DNA of 30,955 bases from the IMG/VR virus record IMGVR_UViG_3300043436_001569, positions 1 through 30,955 of that record; one strand, given 5' to 3'. The notes beneath the pieces are model-generated. The model had not been told where the DNA came from. It saw nothing but the letters and a program-made list of their open reading frames with translations, and did no database searches. The position numbers and the translations under genes are program-made. The stretch comes from a virus. This document shows positions 1 through 30,955 of the stretch, piece after piece. How positions within the stretch are numbered: the first letter of the stretch is position 1; each line of letters begins with the position of its first letter.

Positions 1-306
1 CTATTCATCGTTGGGGTATAATCTTTCCAATATACCATTTCACGACCTTCACGGGTTTCCATATTTAATGATTGGAACTTTACAACTAATCTTTTTTGTT
101 GTGTGTTCTGCCAATCTTCACAAACATAAAAAACACCATTTTCCCTATTGTGTATTTCTACATCTTGTTTTCCAACACGAACATCTTGGAATGGAATGTG
201 GTAGATACTTTCAATTCTACTTCCATCACGGCTTTTAATTACTTCCAAACTATAACCACCAAATAACCAAATATCATAAAAAATCTTGTAATATAATTCA
301 CTAATG
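1..306. repeat. Left copy of diverged terminal overlap
   Basis: This 306-base stretch is repeated at 30650-30955. I count 24 mismatches and no indels. The first 122 bases and the last 24 are identical, and 22 of the 24 differences lie at 198-282. Most changes fall at third codon positions of the portal gene, and only five amino-acid differences result. The simplest reading is the closure overlap of a circular or permuted genome, with two strain variants joined by the assembler. Confidence 0.85.
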
Positions 307-627: not shown

Positions 628-2532
628 TTATCTTGGTGGAAACATATTAGGGCCTGGTTTAGATGCTATACCATAACCCGCTGTTGTTATTAAACTATTT
701 CCGTTTGTTGTAGCGCTCCAAGTAATACCATCGTTAGATATTGCTATTGTATTTGTTCCCTGTCCTACCGCAACAAATATAGAACCATTCCAAGCAACAC
801 TAGAACCATAACTACTAATTATACTATTACCATTTGTAGATGCGCTCCAAGTCAAACCATCAGTAGAATAACCTAAAGTATTTGTTCCCTGTCCTGCCGC
901 AACAAATATAGAACCATTCCAAGCAATACCAAGACAAGATGTAGTAAAGATACTATTACCATTTGTAGAAGCAGACCAAGTTATACCATCGTTGGAATAA
1001 CCTAATCTATTTGTTCCCTGCGCTCCAGCAATCCATCTACTACCATTAGTAGCGATGCCTTTTACATTATTGTTAAATATACTAGTGGCATTCGTAGATG
1101 CGCTCCAAATAAACCCGTCAGTTGAATATATTATTTTATTACTACCACCAACAGCAACCCATTTAGAACCATCATAAGCAATATCATCACAACCACTAGG
1201 CATCAAAGAAAGAGCGTTAGTTGTAGCACTATAGACATCACCATCATAAGATACTGCTAAAGGTTGCGTTGTTGCTCCAGCAGCAATAAACTTACCATCA
1301 CCATACGCAACACCAAATGCCGAAATACTTAAAAAAGAACCTAAATTACTTGAACCAGTCCAACTTATACCATCATTAGAATATAAACCATCACTAGGAC
1401 TACCTGCTCCAACTGCCACCCACCTTGAACCATTTGTTGCTACTGCTTGTGCTACTATACTTAAACTTGAACCTGTGCCCGCACTCCAAACTAAACCATC
1501 TCTAGAATACACAACTTTAGTAGAACTATCACCAGCAGCCACCCAAAGTTCAACAGGGGTGCTCGTTGGCGTTGGTGTGTAAGTCGGTGTTATTGAAGGG
1601 GTAGGACTAGGGGTTAAAGTTGTTGTTGGTGTGTTAGTGGGCGTTTCTGTAGGCGTCTGTGTAGGCGTTTCCGTGTTTGTAGGGGTAATTGTCGGGGTCG
1701 GTGTTAAAGTAGATGTTGCCGTAATTGAAGGCGTTGGCGTTGGCGTTTCCGTGTTTGTAGGTGTCTGTGTTGGGGTCGGCGTCTGCGTAGGTGTTTCCGT
1801 ATTAGTTGGTGTCTGCGTAGGTGTTTCCGTATTAGTTGGTGTCTGCGTAGGCGTTTCAGTATTAGTCGGTGTCTGTGTAGTCGTAGGTGTTTGTGTAGTC
1901 GTAGGCGTCTGTGTAGGCGTTTCCGTGTTTGTAGGGGTAATTGTCGGGGTAATAGAAGGTGTCTGTGTATTGGTAGGCGTTTGTGTTGGTGTCGCTGTGT
2001 TCGTAGGTGTAATTGACGGGGTTATTGAAGGGGTCGGTGTGTGTGAAGGGGTAAGGGAAATTGTAGGCGTAGGTGTTATACCATCACCATTCTTATAGTA
2101 GATTTTATTAGGTGCGACATTAGCAGTATTACCTGTATAGAACTCGTTTTCAACAGGAACAAATATAAACGCTAAACTATTCAACAACTTTTCACCTGAA
2201 GGATTTAATGATGTTGAATTAGGTGGCATTTCATAAATCCCTAACCAATATTGGTTTTCATTTACAAGGTGTAAATTACAATCAGTTCCCGCACTATAAA
2301 TATAGTTTTCAGGTTGGTTCTTAAATGTGTTAAATGTGAATACATCATAACGACCAGTATAGGCACTTGGATAAGTATTTGTGCTATTTTCAGGATAAAA
2401 CGATACAATATTTCTACCTTGAGCGTTCTGTAATCTCCACAGGTATTTTGGATTAGCACCAAAGTTTCCCGTCTTGTATTGGGATACATTTACGAAGATG
2501 TTATTGACTGCGTTTTGTTCTATGTATATCAT
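628..2532 (-). CDS. Tail fibre/receptor-binding protein: N-terminal domain, Thr/Pro stalk, seven-repeat propeller
   Basis: A 634-aa protein in three parts. Residues 1-150 form a globular domain (start [11 protein letters not shown]). Residues about 152-325 are a low-complexity stalk of T-P-T-x-T-P units. Residues about 326-634 hold seven repeats, each with a V-A-x-G strand and an Asp-box-like motif of the type [12 protein letters not shown] (S-x-D-G-x-x-W). Seven Asp-box repeats suggest a seven-bladed beta-propeller of the sialidase/BNR type, fitting a glycan-binding tip. I chose ATG at 2532, 5 nt after the upstream stop. A longer in-frame start at 2664 would overlap the preceding gene by 127 nt and encodes an unlikely, Arg/Tyr/Cys-rich leader. 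The gene sits between another Thr/Pro protein and the portal. Its role as an adhesin is inferred from architecture. Confidence 0.8.
1555..2080 (-). repeat. Thr/Pro-coding tandem repeat tract
   Basis: Imperfect tandem repeats of 6-36 bases encode the T-P-T-x-T-P stalk of the 634-aa fibre protein. Several 36-base units encoding [12 protein letters not shown] recur almost exactly between about 1740 and 1860. The complementary strand is read as a spurious Val/Gly ORF. The tract is prone to length change by slippage and gives homology with the shorter tract at about 3060-3235. Confidence 0.85.
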
Positions 2533-2537
2533 AATAT

Positions 2538-3338
2538 TTAGGTTGGTGAAGGGGTCATAGTATTCGTTGGGGTGATACTTGGTGTATTCGTTGGGGTTGG
2601 ACTTGGAACAATACCACCTTGAATGTAGAACCTTACAACCAAATCTAAATCTTGTGTAGGACAACCATTACCCAAGTCAGCGGCAGGATTTACAATAGCG
2701 GTTTGTTTTGTAGTTCCTGAAATTAAAGAACCACCTTGATAATATTGTTCCAAGTAGTCATATCCACCAAAAGAACCAATAAGTGCGTTGTAAGCAAAGT
2801 TTATATTCCTAACTTCATCATAAACAAAACCAGGTGAAGAACAACCTGAAAATCCACCACCATAAGTTATTTGATAAATTATGGCTGTATTGTTTCTAAT
2901 CTGTAGATTTACACAAGAACCATTACCTATTGTTCCACCAGTAGATAAAATTGGAACTAATGTTCCATTCACACTAACGGAAACTCCACCTGTGTATATT
3001 CCACCACCACAATCAATAGCCAATAATCCCGTTTGATACGGGACTGCTGGTGATGATGTTGGGGTCATCGTGGGTGTTGGGGTCATCGTAGCCGTTCTTG
3101 TCGGTGTAGGCGTCCTTGTAGTCGTTGGTGTGTTGGTTGGTGTGGTTGTGTTAGTCGGTGTGGTTGTAGGTGTCGCAGTATTCGTAGGTGTAATACTTGG
3201 GGTGATTGAAGGCGTAGGCGTTGGACTTGGACTTGGCGGTGGTGTTGGGTCAGGAAATAAAATTGGTGGAACTTGAGCCCCGTAGTTATACACTTGTTCG
3301 CCTTGGAAGTATTGGGTAAGTAATGATTTAACCTTCAT
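2538..3338 (-). CDS. Thr/Pro-rich structural protein, probable tail appendage
   Basis: A 266-aa protein. A short N-terminal segment ([20 protein letters not shown]) is followed by a Pro/Thr stalk at about residues 28-95, then a Gly/Ser-rich globular part (about 98-245) with four cysteines and beta-rich composition, then a second short Thr/Pro tail that ends the protein. The tail resembles the start of the stalk in the next gene, which begins only 5 nt downstream. The two may once have been one chain, or may exchange parts. The start overlaps the end of the 79-aa gene by 11 nt. I recognise no enzymatic domain. The position among fibre genes suggests a virion appendage; this is inference. Confidence 0.7.
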
Positions 3339-17976: not shown

Positions 17977-19410
17977 TTAATTTACTTTAACTGCTCTGCC
18001 GATATTAGACATATATTTATTCACTATTGTTGATAAGGTCTGTATTTGTCCGTCAGTCATACCATCAGCACTCCAACTACAGCCGTGTTGATTATCCCTT
18101 CTTCCTGATGTAGCGTTAAAGACCCTTATTGTTCCTGTTGGTAATCCAGCAGAACTCATACTAACGCTGTTTTGTGCTACTTTTGTTTCGTTGCTCCATA
18201 GGTTAAAGTTTGTTGAACTATCCCTATTTCCAATAACACAACCTAATTGATTTTTAATATCAGTATTGGGAATACCTATTCTATCACTTGAAGTATCAAA
18301 CATATCGCATCTTGTGTATAAATCACCACCCCACCATACTATATTTGCTGTGTATCCACCACCAGTCGCTCCAATATCATTTCCATAATAATAAGAACCA
18401 CCATTCCAAGTTGCCGCTCCACCAAATCCCATTAGATAAAATCCTATTTGTAATGATGGGAAAGTCATACTAACAGAAGGGGTTATACCCATATCACCTT
18501 CGCCTGTTGATGATGCTTCAACCCCGTTGATGTAATTTAATGTTCCCGTCCAAGTCATATCAAATGTTCCTGGACTAATCATATTTATTCTTGTTGAATT
18601 AGCGGTATTACCCAGATATGGATAAAAAGTTTTTAATGAACTATAAAGTGATGCCGCTTTTAATTCAGTAAAGAAGTTATTTGTTGCCGCACTAATGTTA
18701 TATCCAATATCACCAACTACGGCTGATACTGCGTTTAAGTATGTCTGTGCGTCAGCGTCAAACGATATAGGGGTTTCTACAACCTGCCAAGTTAAATTAT
18801 CACCTGAAGGAATGTTTATTACAACATCTGCTTCACCTGTTCCCCCACTTGTGATTGTGGCACCACTAATAAAGTTTAAGATTGATACTGCTGGAACTAC
18901 TAAAGTTCCACCACTATAAACATCTACACTTTGTCCGTTTATTCCACTTGTTCCTGATGTTCCTGAACTACCATCTTGACCTGATGAACCTGAACTTCCA
19001 TCTTGACCCGATGTTCCTGAACTACCATTACTTCCTGATATACCTGAAGTCCCTGATGTTCCTGCGATTGCCACTTCACCCCAATTTGCGTTTATATCAG
19101 GTGGGTTCTGTCCTATTGAAATGGTTGTTAAAGCCACCCAAGATGACCCGTTGTAATACACAACATCATTTAGGTAATAAGTTATGTTGTTCTGCCAACC
19201 ACCCTGATAGTTGAAACCTAATCCTGATGTTCCACTAGTTCCTGATGTGCCAGAAGTCCCCGATGTGCCACTAGTTCCTGACGCACCTGAAAACAAAGTT
19301 TCCTTTGTTATTTTGTATGTTGTTGTTTCACCTGAATTATTACCAGGAAAATAAAACCCTTCGGTATTCCCCGTCCATTCTGGTAATTGTGATATTGTTA
19401 AATTACTCAT
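17977..19410 (-). CDS. Collagen-like tail fibre with carbohydrate-binding-like and lectin-like domains
   Basis: A 477-aa fibre. Residues 1-40 form an attachment region. Residues about 43-63 are six G-T-S-type triplets. Residues 66-100 (W-Q-N-N-I-T-Y-Y-L-N-D-V-V-Y-Y-N-G-S-S-W) look like a CBM5/12 chitin-binding-type module. Residues about 116-160 carry a second triplet block (GTSG, QDGSSG). The C-terminal 280 residues include strands and a final RRDNQHGCSWSADGMTDGQIQTL helix segment often seen at the tip of Bacteroidota phage fibres (LamG/lectin-like fold suspected). Triplet blocks suggest a trimer. It follows the tail-terminator-like gene after 23 nt of A/T-rich leader. Host glycan binding is inferred. 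Confidence 0.75.
   Translation of the reverse strand: MSNLTISQLPEWTGNTEGFYFPGNNSGETTTYKITKETLFSGASGTSGTSGTSGTSGTSGTSGLGFNYQGGWQNNITYYLNDVVYYNGSSWVALTTISIGQNPPDINANWGEVAIAGTSGTSGISGSNGSSGTSGQDGSSGSSGQDGSSGTSGTSGINGQSVDVYSGGTLVVPAVSILNFISGATITSGGTGEADVVINIPSGDNLTWQVVETPISFDADAQTYLNAVSAVVGDIGYNISAATNNFFTELKAASLYSSLKTFYPYLGNTANSTRINMISPGTFDMTWTGTLNYINGVEASSTGEGDMGITPSVSMTFPSLQIGFYLMGFGGAATWNGGSYYYGNDIGATGGGYTANIVWWGGDLYTRCDMFDTSSDRIGIPNTDIKNQLGCVIGNRDSSTNFNLWSNETKVAQNSVSMSSAGLPTGTIRVFNATSGRRDNQHGCSWSADGMTDGQIQTLSTIVNKYMSNIGRAVKVN
19221..19285 (-). repeat. Nine-base repeat encoding Gly-Thr-Ser triplets
   Basis: Imperfect 9-base units encode GTSGTS... in the collagen-like fibre. A second, more degenerate block encoding GTSG/QDGSSG lies at about 18945-19065. 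Codons differ between units (GGA/GGC, ACT/ACA/ACG), so the tract is not a fresh expansion. Confidence 0.75.
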
Positions 19411-27496: not shown

Positions 27497-28201
27497 TTAT
27501 TCAATTATAGTGAATATTGATGATACTAATTCATCAAGTTCTTTATCGGTTGTAAAACCATTATCAATATCATAAATGACTTTACTGACTAAATCCTTCC
27601 TGTCTATTCCCCTTTCGGTGATGACGCTTTCCTTGAAGGTTCTAATACTTTTGTATTTCGCAAAATACCCATCATCACCCAATCCTAATGTAAGTGAAAT
27701 GTTATATTGTAATCTGTTGAACTGAACCATAGTGATTTCATCAAGGGTAGTATTCAAGTCGGTCATCAGTTTATTAAAGTCCTTCTTATTCATAATCAAC
27801 CCATCAGTAAAAACTTTAAGTGCGATGTGTTTGTCGTCTTCAGTTTCCCTAACTAATATGTTATGTGGTGTTTTATAGGTCTTTCCCCACGCCAGTTTGA
27901 CTTTCTTTTCCTTTGTGGGAATATATCCCATAATGGTTTTTATAGCCTCTCCTAACCAGTATTTAATCATATCATTTTGATTATTGGTAATACCGAGCAT
28001 CGTGTGTGTGTATATCGCACTATCATCATCACAATTTTCAAGATACACAAACGCTGCTTCCCATAACCTTTCTTCCGCAGTTAGTAGTTCTTTTGTTTCT
28101 ACCCTATGTAGATTGGTTATGATTGCCAAAGACAATCCTTCAATAAACTCGTCTGTTGAAAACAGATATGGTTTTCCTTCTGGTGAATATTTTTTTTTCA
28201 T
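27497..28201 (-). CDS. Unknown protein directly behind the replication initiator, 234 aa
   Basis: Begins MKKKYSPEGKPYLFSTDEFI. Mixed alpha/beta, acidic; includes WLGEAIKTIMGYIPTKEKKVKLAWGKTYKT-like segments and a helical C-terminus (DKELDELVSSIFTIIE). No Walker A, zinc site or other motif seen. It starts one base after the stop of the O-like initiator, the position held by the helicase loader P in lambda. A loader role is a positional guess only; sequence similarity to P or DnaC is not apparent. Confidence 0.7.
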   Translation of the reverse strand: MKKKYSPEGKPYLFSTDEFIEGLSLAIITNLHRVETKELLTAEERLWEAAFVYLENCDDDSAIYTHTMLGITNNQNDMIKYWLGEAIKTIMGYIPTKEKKVKLAWGKTYKTPHNILVRETEDDKHIALKVFTDGLIMNKKDFNKLMTDLNTTLDEITMVQFNRLQYNISLTLGLGDDGYFAKYKSIRTFKESVITERGIDRKDLVSKVIYDIDNGFTTDKELDELVSSIFTIIE

Positions 28202-28202
28202 A

Positions 28203-28928
28203 TTAGAACTTGTATTTTTTAACTGGTTTGGTTTTATTTTCTTTCAACAAAGTTAGTGAAATATCATCGGTAATCCAAAACTTTTCGTTGAAATATTTAT
28301 TGACTGGTTTGATGAACTTTGGTTCATCTTTATTTCGTTGAAGATAAACAGGTAATATCTTTTCAATCTGTTTCTTTTCGTCATCATTCAAGAACAACCA
28401 AGTATAATCAAACGCTTCCTGTATTCCTTTCTGTTTTGACTTTGGAAATAGTCCAACGATTTTATTAAATCTTAAATCAGTTTCATACGACGCTTGCGTA
28501 TCGTTATTATCTTTATTATCTTCTTTATTATATGTGGAAATATTTTCCTCCCCTAATGGTATTATTTTCCTGTCTGTATGGAAATCTTTTCCACCCTGTA
28601 TGGAAATTATTTCCTCTTGTGTGGAAGTATTTTCCACCCCATCTATATTACAAACTTCAAGGGAAATGTTTTCAATTTCAGGACGATTGTTTAGATAAAT
28701 AAATCTTCTGTCTCTGGTTTGGAATGTATTGATATGACCTAGTGATTTCAATTTAGAAACAGAACTTCTAATTGTTCTATCACTTACTTTAAGTAATTTG
28801 CCAGCATATTCATTACTAAAACAAATTGTTTGTCTAGCATCGTTCAAGGAAATTATCCACGACATCAATAAACATTCAATCGTGGATAAATCTTTATAGG
28901 GTCTATAAACTATAAACACTTCTTTCAT
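28203..28928 (-). CDS. Replication initiator-like protein (lambda O/DnaD-type layout)
   Basis: A 241-aa protein. Residues about 14-75 (ECLLMSWIISLNDARQTICF, then NEYAGKLLKVSDRTIRSSVS, KLKSLGHINTFQTRDRRFIY) form a winged helix-turn-helix like the N-terminal domain of phage replication proteins. Residues about 80-150 are a polar, Asn/Lys/Asp/Glu-rich linker. Residues about 150-225 are helical and end KFIKPVNKYFNEKFW. The linker-coding DNA holds a periodic set of palindromic repeats (28536-28674) next to an A/T-rich stretch, just as lambda ori lies in gene O. It overlaps the upstream regulator by 4 nt (ATGA). Initiator function is inferred from fold, iterons and position. Confidence 0.75.
   Translation of the reverse strand: MKEVFIVYRPYKDLSTIECLLMSWIISLNDARQTICFSNEYAGKLLKVSDRTIRSSVSKLKSLGHINTFQTRDRRFIYLNNRPEIENISLEVCNIDGVENTSTQEEIISIQGGKDFHTDRKIIPLGEENISTYNKEDNKDNNDTQASYETDLRFNKIVGLFPKSKQKGIQEAFDYTWLFLNDDEKKQIEKILPVYLQRNKDEPKFIKPVNKYFNEKFWITDDISLTLLKENKTKPVKKYKF
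28498..28674. other. Probable replication origin: iterons plus A/T-rich stretch
   Basis: Five 13-bp palindromic cores of the type GGAAATATTTTCC start at 28536, 28558, 28580, 28602 and 28623 (spacing 22, 22, 22, 21). R2 (28558, GGTATTATTTTCC) is degenerate, and a sixth, weaker copy lies at 28662. An A/T-rich run of TTATTAT/CTTTATTA units (about 28500-28533) borders the array. The period is not a multiple of three, so repeats are read in different frames and cannot be explained by protein repeats. Layout matches lambda ori inside O. Confidence 0.75.
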
Positions 28929-29110
28929 ATTTCAATATCGCCCCATCTTCCGTTTTTATCCATAGGGTTCTTCAACCCAAGATTGATTTTGGTGATTTGT
29001 GTTCTAGATACTTTGTATTTGTCTGCGATTTGTTGATGGGTATGTTCCCCACCTTCCAACAATACTTTAATTCTACGAACTTGCGTTGCTGATAATTTTG
29101 GTCTTGGCAT
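28925..29110 (-). CDS. Small helix-turn-helix regulator, 61 aa
   Basis: Begins MPRPKLSATQVRRIKVLLEG. The segment HQQIADKYKVSRTQITKINL is a clear helix-turn-helix. The protein is almost only that domain, with a short tail ending GRWGDIEI. It sits at the front of the early operon, downstream of a promoter that has an inverted repeat in its spacer, so autoregulation is plausible. It overlaps the initiator start by 4 nt. It resembles the first 50 residues of the 132-aa protein at 23599-23997. Confidence 0.75.
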   Translation of the reverse strand: MPRPKLSATQVRRIKVLLEGGEHTHQQIADKYKVSRTQITKINLGLKNPMDKNGRWGDIEI

Positions 29111-30109: not shown

Positions 30110-30955
30110 AATTCGGGTGTTCTAAACTTGTTTATCAATTTGATTGGTCTATCGTATTTTAACGCTAATATGTTTTCAATAGATGCGTTTGCTTTTCTAA
30201 CCATAGGCTTAATTGTGGTTTCCATCATCAAGTTCCAAGCCACATTTATTTCTTCTGCGTTTTGACTGAATGCTGAATTATTCAAGGTTGAAATACCAAG
30301 AAGTAATGGTGATGCGACTTGTTGTCCTGTAAGGATTGCCTGAACGCACATTTGTAATATTTCGGTATAGAAACTATCATTACCCGTATTACTAATTGGT
30401 TCAATAACAGGTCTTTCATCAGCAGAATTACTGAACGCCAACATAAGTTTTTGTCCGTTCTTTCCTTGATAAGACCTAACCAATTCTTCGTATGTAGAAA
30501 GTCGTTCTTCAGGTGTAGGGTCTCCTATCAAACTTACAAATAAGTTCGGCATAAGTGATGCTGCCAAGTTTGTCTTGTGGAATTGGTAGATTTCTGCTTC
30601 CAATACACAACTATCAATAGAAGATTGATATGGTGTTAAAGGATAGTGTCTATTCATCGTTGGGGTATAATCTTTCCAATATACCATTTCACGACCTTCA
30701 CGGGTTTCCATATTTAATGATTGGAACTTTACAACTAATCTTTTTTGTTGTGTGTTCTGCCAATCTTCACATACATAAAAAACACCATTTTCCCTGTTGT
30801 GTATTTCTACATCTTGTTTTCCAACACGAACATCTTGGAATGGAATATGGTAGATACTTTCAACTCTGCTGCCGTCCCTGCTTTTGATAATTTCCCACGA
30901 ATACCCCCCAAATAACCATATGTCGTATAAGGTCTTGTAATATAATTCACTAATG
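30106..30955 (-). CDS. Portal protein, C-terminal part (open at right edge)
   Basis: The frame is open from the right edge of the window to TGA at 30106. An internal ATG at 30711 is not the true start, because in-frame codons continue to the edge and match those at 1-306. Residues include WLFGGYSWEIIKSRDGSR, YHIPFQDVRVGKQDVEIHNR and a C-terminal helical part (QAILTGQQVASPLLLGISTL, WNLMMETTIKPMV). These fit the clip/stem and crown of a portal. With 1-584 it makes a 375-aa protein. In the overlap this copy differs from the left copy at five residues. Confidence 0.85.
   Translation of the reverse strand, partial: ISELYYKTLYDIWLFGGYSWEIIKSRDGSRVESIYHIPFQDVRVGKQDVEIHNRENGVFYVCEDWQNTQQKRLVVKFQSLNMETREGREMVYWKDYTPTMNRHYPLTPYQSSIDSCVLEAEIYQFHKTNLAASLMPNLFVSLIGDPTPEERLSTYEELVRSYQGKNGQKLMLAFSNSADERPVIEPISNTGNDSFYTEILQMCVQAILTGQQVASPLLLGISTLNNSAFSQNAEEINVAWNLMMETTIKPMVRKANASIENILALKYDRPIKLINKFRTPEL
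30650..30955. repeat. Right copy of diverged terminal overlap
   Basis: Aligns without gaps to 1-306 with 24 mismatches, mostly in the segment matching 198-282. It marks the point at which the circular or permuted genome was cut by assembly. Confidence 0.85.

Follow-up and report, generated by a model that had tools for sequence, protein, structure and literature searches.

The locus described here raises the question of whether a row of short palindromes inside a protein-coding gene is the replication origin of an uncultured phage, as it is in lambda, where the origin lies within gene O. The window, i.e. the whole stretch of DNA that was analysed, is the 30,955-nucleotide IMG/VR virus record IMGVR_UViG_3300043436_001569. 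A preliminary description had proposed a lambda-ori layout inside an initiator gene, and the in-gene array, its conserved spacing and the AT tract next to it support this proposal. In our judgement the array very probably works like lambda ori, i.e. as an origin placed inside the initiator gene.

Iteron array and initiator gene

The iterons are 13-bp palindromes that were found by reading the sequence and by a repeat search. Five of them, one degenerate, lie inside a 241-aa gene on the minus strand. The features of the region are listed below; DNA sites are given without strand.

28203..28928, minus strand: initiator gene, 241 aa; winged helix at the N-terminus, then a disordered linker in which the iterons lie, then a helical C-terminal region
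28746..28787, minus strand: codons of the recognition-helix region, VSDRTIRSSVSKLK, residues 48-61 (helix at 50-62 in the AlphaFold2 model)
28623..28635: iteron GGAAGTATTTTCC (repeat search; in orthologue L001 the arms match fully)
28602..28614: iteron GGAAATTATTTCC (repeat search; palindrome matches)
28580..28592: iteron GGAAATCTTTTCC (repeat search; palindrome matches)
28558..28570: degenerate iteron GGTATTATTTTCC (this position is degenerate in L001 and L006 too)
28536..28548: iteron GGAAATATTTTCC (repeat search; identical sequence in L001)
28501..28535: AT-rich stretch, candidate unwinding element, after the array in the sense of the gene
27497..28201, minus strand: downstream gene, 234 aa, at the position of lambda P; replaced jointly with the initiator in relatives
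28925..29110, minus strand: upstream HTH gene, 61 aa; overlaps the start of the initiator by 4 bp and borders the swappable cassette

On the plus strand the iterons start at 28536, 28558, 28580, 28602 and 28623, i.e. the spacings are 22, 22, 22 and 21 bp, and the repeat search thus returned exactly the five palindromes, with a degenerate second copy, of the preliminary description. A sixth match, GGAAATGTTTTCA at 28662, was dropped as an iteron: it is 39 bp away and off register, and it is absent from orthologue L006.

The repeats might have arisen by chance or as a by-product of the linker being of low complexity, and this linker is indeed AT-rich and poorly structured. However, the codon phases of the five copies are 2, 1, 0, 2 and 2, i.e. 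all three phases are occupied, and therefore they do not constitute a protein repeat, as had been claimed from the sequence at the outset. Matches to GGAAANNNTTTCC with at most one mismatch number 7 in the whole window against 1.5 expected from dinucleotide shuffles, and none of 100 shuffles attained 7. In a codon-resampling test the protein was kept fixed and the codons were redrawn from the phage's own usage (20,000 sequences). Five near-matches are observed where the resampled maximum is 4 (0/20,000 attain 5), and the lag-22 self-similarity of 0.54 was likewise attained by none of the 20,000 (maximum 0.538). The test errs on the conservative side, as the peptides EENIS, RKIIP, GKDFH, EEIIS and VENTS are fixed by the iterons. 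A motif-free chain detector gave the array a z of 14. The by-product or chance explanation is rejected by the resampling, the shuffles and the motif-free detector alike, and the iteron arms are kept while amino acids change (see below); we regard it as next to impossible.

The N-terminal winged helix of the preliminary description was recovered both in profile searches (Pfam, PHROG) and in an AlphaFold2 model. The HTH_36 match (E 2.6e-5) is slightly under the Pfam cut-off (24.4 bits vs 25), the orthologue L006 scores over it (26.3), and the initiator also matches PHROG 270 (E 2e-8) and PHROG 428 (E 6.2e-7), both of which are "replication initiation protein" families. The model, built from five sequences only, has the winged helix at residues 16-79 (block pLDDT ~58-81), followed by a linker at 89-154 with pLDDT below 50 and then by low-confidence helices. 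The array encodes this disordered linker, which is where the preliminary description had placed it. As judged from profiles and model, the 241-aa protein belongs with the HTH_36 phage replication initiators. Its own family was found neither in GTDB genomes nor in 395 Bacteroidota genomes; tblastn against phage GenBank gave one weak match only, the initiator of Staphylococcus phage EW, and a PDB sequence search gave nothing useful.

The AT-rich stretch reported to adjoin the iterons was also found: the most A+T-rich 40-nt segment of the initiator gene is 28504-28543 (85% A+T vs 64% for the genome), and it overlaps the end of the array. Twenty-nine nucleotides of the stretch, 28501-28529, are identical in L008, an orthologue with 50% protein identity. 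GC skew, suggested earlier as a check, carries no origin signal in the window; it is uninformative on this point because nearly all genes are on one strand.

Orthologues and the exchangeable cassette

Four orthologues only were found, L001, L006, L007 and L008, with protein identities to the window initiator of 83%, 63%, 80% (truncated) and 50%, respectively. The array lies about 290 nt into the gene in all of them. L001, L006 and L007 retain five copies at 21/22/22/22 bp in the coding sense. Between the window and L001, substitutions affect 1 of 50 arm positions, 4 of 15 positions in the three-base centres and 63 of 576 positions in the gene outside the array; the sole arm change completes a palindrome and alters an amino acid. 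The comparison with L006 gives 2/50 for the arms and 7/15 for the centres. Substitutions thus spare the arms and crowd in the centres, i.e. the arms are retained as DNA even as the protein diverges. L006 (2846-3595) has a window-type N-terminal half with the iterons and a different C-terminal half; the junction lies just past the array, as expected of a putative mosaic exchange at an origin.

L008 has the same gene order as the window, and it carries five copies of a TAATCA-N3-TGATTA-type palindrome at 22/21/22/22 bp at the same position of the linker. Its recognition helix reads VSTPTITRAIARLK as opposed to VSDRTIRSSVSKLK in the window, whereas neighbouring residues are much less changed: identity is 79% over the winged-helix domain without the recognition helix. 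In other words, judging from the aligned sequences, copy number and pitch are kept from the window to L008, and iteron sequence and recognition helix change together. Iterons of the L008 type were not found elsewhere in IMG/VR. The proposed check that relatives keep the spacing while codons vary was positive in four related genes, and it holds even in L008, where both iterons and recognition helix are swapped.

Near relatives of the phage are also informative. In L017, L047, L019 and L025, whose terminases are 93-98% identical to that of the window, a DnaB-like helicase of 399-430 aa (PHROG 19, E 1.2e-51 in L017) replaces the initiator and the downstream gene between conserved neighbours. No significant array is present in this helicase-bearing slot (before gene107), which ties the repeats to the initiator and not to the genome backbone. 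From this comparison, a single slot is seen to accept two interchangeable replication modules, an initiator with what appears to be a built-in origin or a DnaB-like helicase without iterons. In L048 the slot holds a third type, a DUF6291-like protein.

The downstream 234-aa protein has no convincing family match in profile searches, and its low-confidence model gave no match in the fold search, so that a helicase-loader role, which it may have by analogy of gene position only, is a guess. Neither this gene nor the C-terminal domain of the initiator matches known helicase-loading families.

The palindrome in other initiators

A blind pattern of two GGAAA-N3-TTTCC copies 22 bp apart was searched in IMG/VR using DNA only. 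It occurs in 27 stretches, 3 from the window's family and 24 others. Of these 24, 20 have the pattern within an ORF that was interpreted as a winged-helix initiator, and L068 has it 3 nt past such an ORF. The remaining three are L078, truncated where the contig ends, and L069 and L080, which are near copies without a winged-helix gene. As there are near copies among the 24 contigs, the independent cases are fewer, roughly 15. Protein scanning of 24 proteins, which include the window's own family and two non-initiator genes, gave matches to HTH_36 in 20, to PHROG 270 in 21 and to O-like families in 17. The same pattern with a 27-bp spacing, used as a control, gave no match. The iteron is therefore not peculiar to the window phage. 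The preliminary description had spoken of iterons different from those of lambda; they are unlike lambda's, but GGAAA-N3-TTTCC at 22 bp recurs in phage and prophage initiators from several phyla.

In GTDB the pattern was found in initiators of Kiloniella, Meiothermus and Pelotomaculum, and in Acrocarpospora an array directly follows a winged-helix gene. Most GTDB matches are not initiators and are chiefly Prevotellaceae repeats.

Some of the contigs deserve mention in their own right. L069 (196-230) and L080 (1481-1515) are related viral contigs with a two-copy array and no winged-helix gene found nearby. The Prevotellaceae MAG UBA2718 has 3-4 copies of CGGAAA-N3-TTTCCG at 22-23 bp on many contigs (L090, L093, L094, L096, L100, L102-L104, L109, L114 and L115); they seem to lie outside long ORFs, no winged-helix genes accompany them, and they form a repeated element. 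On L087 (1975-3321), from a bacterial MAG, the GGAAA-iteron initiator has HTH_36 joined to a DnaA N-terminal domain (E 5.9e-10), possibly a direct helicase-docking fusion.

The motif-free detector, which recovers the annotated ori iterons of lambda (spacings 20, 24 and 23 bp), finds in-gene palindromic arrays with a pitch of 20-24 bp in many phage and prophage HTH_36 initiators. These come from Pseudomonadota, Bacillota and Bacteroidota samples, and the palindrome differs each time. It is conceivable, though we place it slightly below an even chance, that a simple code, valid across phyla, links the recognition helix of phage HTH_36 initiators to the in-gene iterons that they read. Under this code, a recognition helix that opens with R-x-[STA]-[VI]-R would be paired with GGAAA-N3-TTTCC iterons spaced 22 bp, and different helices with different palindromes. 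Arginine at residues 3 and 6 of the aligned helix is found in 16 of 18 distinct helices of the GGAAA class vs 1 of 23 from initiators with another type of array (Fisher p 2e-8), the two classes having been collected differently. The GGAAA label changes about six times on a tree built without the helix columns, and the independent contrasts on well-supported branches number only two, both mostly in the expected direction; the code is therefore suggested and not established. Among 48 initiators in which no array was detected, 8 also have R-x-x-R at this place in the helix, so the motif is not sufficient. The window/L008 pair, in which iteron and helix both changed, lends the code support. The most novel part of this work is the suggested connection of iteron with recognition helix across phyla, whereas the in-gene origin layout is already known. 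Should the code hold, sequence alone could tell where uncultured phages have their origins and what their initiators recognise.

Origin model, lambda and the phage

In lambda (NC_001416) the iterons within gene O are at 39034, 39054, 39078 and 39101. As in lambda (PMC7466680), where the pitch is 20-24 bp, palindromic iterons that bind the initiator, putatively so in the window, lie in the middle of the initiator gene, and in both cases an AT-rich tract adjoins them. The repeats themselves are different, i.e. five 13-bp GGAAA-N3-TTTCC copies in the window and four 18-bp TCCCTC-type copies in lambda. A helicase-loading gene follows downstream in lambda, whereas the 234-aa gene at that place in the window is not P-like by sequence. 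Lambda O was not among the matches of the winged-helix profile, and the window initiator has no O-like PHROG match; the latter is therefore not placed with lambda O by descent.

Closer in protein type are phages whose initiators fall under HTH_36 or the PHROG label "replication initiation O-like", e.g. Pseudomonas phage PP9W2, Klebsiella phage ST13-OXA48phi12.5 and Aeromonas phage AsXd-1, in which, like in the window, an HTH_36-type N-terminus is followed by an iteron linker. Their palindromic iterons are spaced 21-24 bp, each with its own sequence unlike that of the window. PP9W2 and ZF40 have a gene annotated as a DnaB-like helicase directly after the initiator, whereas none was recognised among the window proteins scanned. 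L005, an unrelated GC-rich phage from IMG/VR, has four GGAAA-N3-TTTCC iterons (23/22/22 bp) in the linker-coding part of the gene for an HTH_36 initiator, but its next gene is a full DnaB helicase and its initiator is only about 12% identical to that of the window. The literature search, with subscription papers outside its scope, found the lambda and Stx-phage origins and no report of a GGAAA-N3-TTTCC iteron.

Two other roles of the array have to be weighed. It could be an operator through which the winged-helix protein regulates the early operon via its own gene, with replication starting elsewhere; such folds are common in repressors, and the Foldseek matches of the model are general winged helices, mostly repressors (best E 0.017). 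Yet some 290 nt inside the gene, in every orthologue, would be an odd location for an operator, the protein families and relatives are replication initiators, and relatives exchange the whole cassette for a replicative helicase gene. We find an operator role improbable, while autoregulation could coexist with origin function. A centromere for partition, bound by a TubR/AspA-like winged-helix protein, is more improbable still: TubR and AspA do come up as weak matches in the fold search, but profile searches recognised no partition NTPase among the window proteins scanned, the profile matches are replication proteins, and the site lies inside a gene.

We thus have high confidence that array and initiator gene together make up the lambda-style replication origin of the phage, with the binding, melting and helicase loading proposed here. 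The iterons are most likely the docking sites of the protein encoded by the same gene. Its winged-helix domain would bind the five palindromes, probably as one dimer per iteron, and the spacing of roughly two helical turns would bring these dimers into a stack along a single face of the helix. The stacked dimers may then strain and open the adjoining AT-rich stretch; in lambda and Stx phages initiator complexes form on the iterons and strain opens an AT-rich tract (PMC7466680). The C-terminal half would recruit a helicase, probably host DnaB because no helicase was recognised by profile searches among the window proteins scanned, and perhaps with the help of the 234-aa protein.

An uncultured phage group thereby gains a concrete candidate origin. 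Among HTH_36 phage initiators the lambda design seems to be a frequent arrangement, at least in Pseudomonadota, Bacillota and Bacteroidota. As the same iteron recurs in distant phages, metagenomic phage origins are searchable by a short DNA pattern.

The host is likely a member of the Bacteroidota, as the preliminary description had it: phages of Bacteroides, Parabacteroides and Phocaeicola rank highest among the listed terminase relatives (about 33% identity), and 7 of 296 Bacteroidota genomes contain weaker matches. This assignment is unproven, as staphylococcal and streptococcal phages match the terminase too.

The ends of the window (1-306 and 30650-30955) overlap within the portal gene over 306 bp with 92% identity; by this overlap the record is a nearly full circle of about 30.6 kb, its ends coming from slightly different strains or copies. 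Finally, the ORFs at 628-3338 and 17977-19410 contain long Pro/Thr-rich repeats, and a third ORF of the window has a GTSGTSG repeat.
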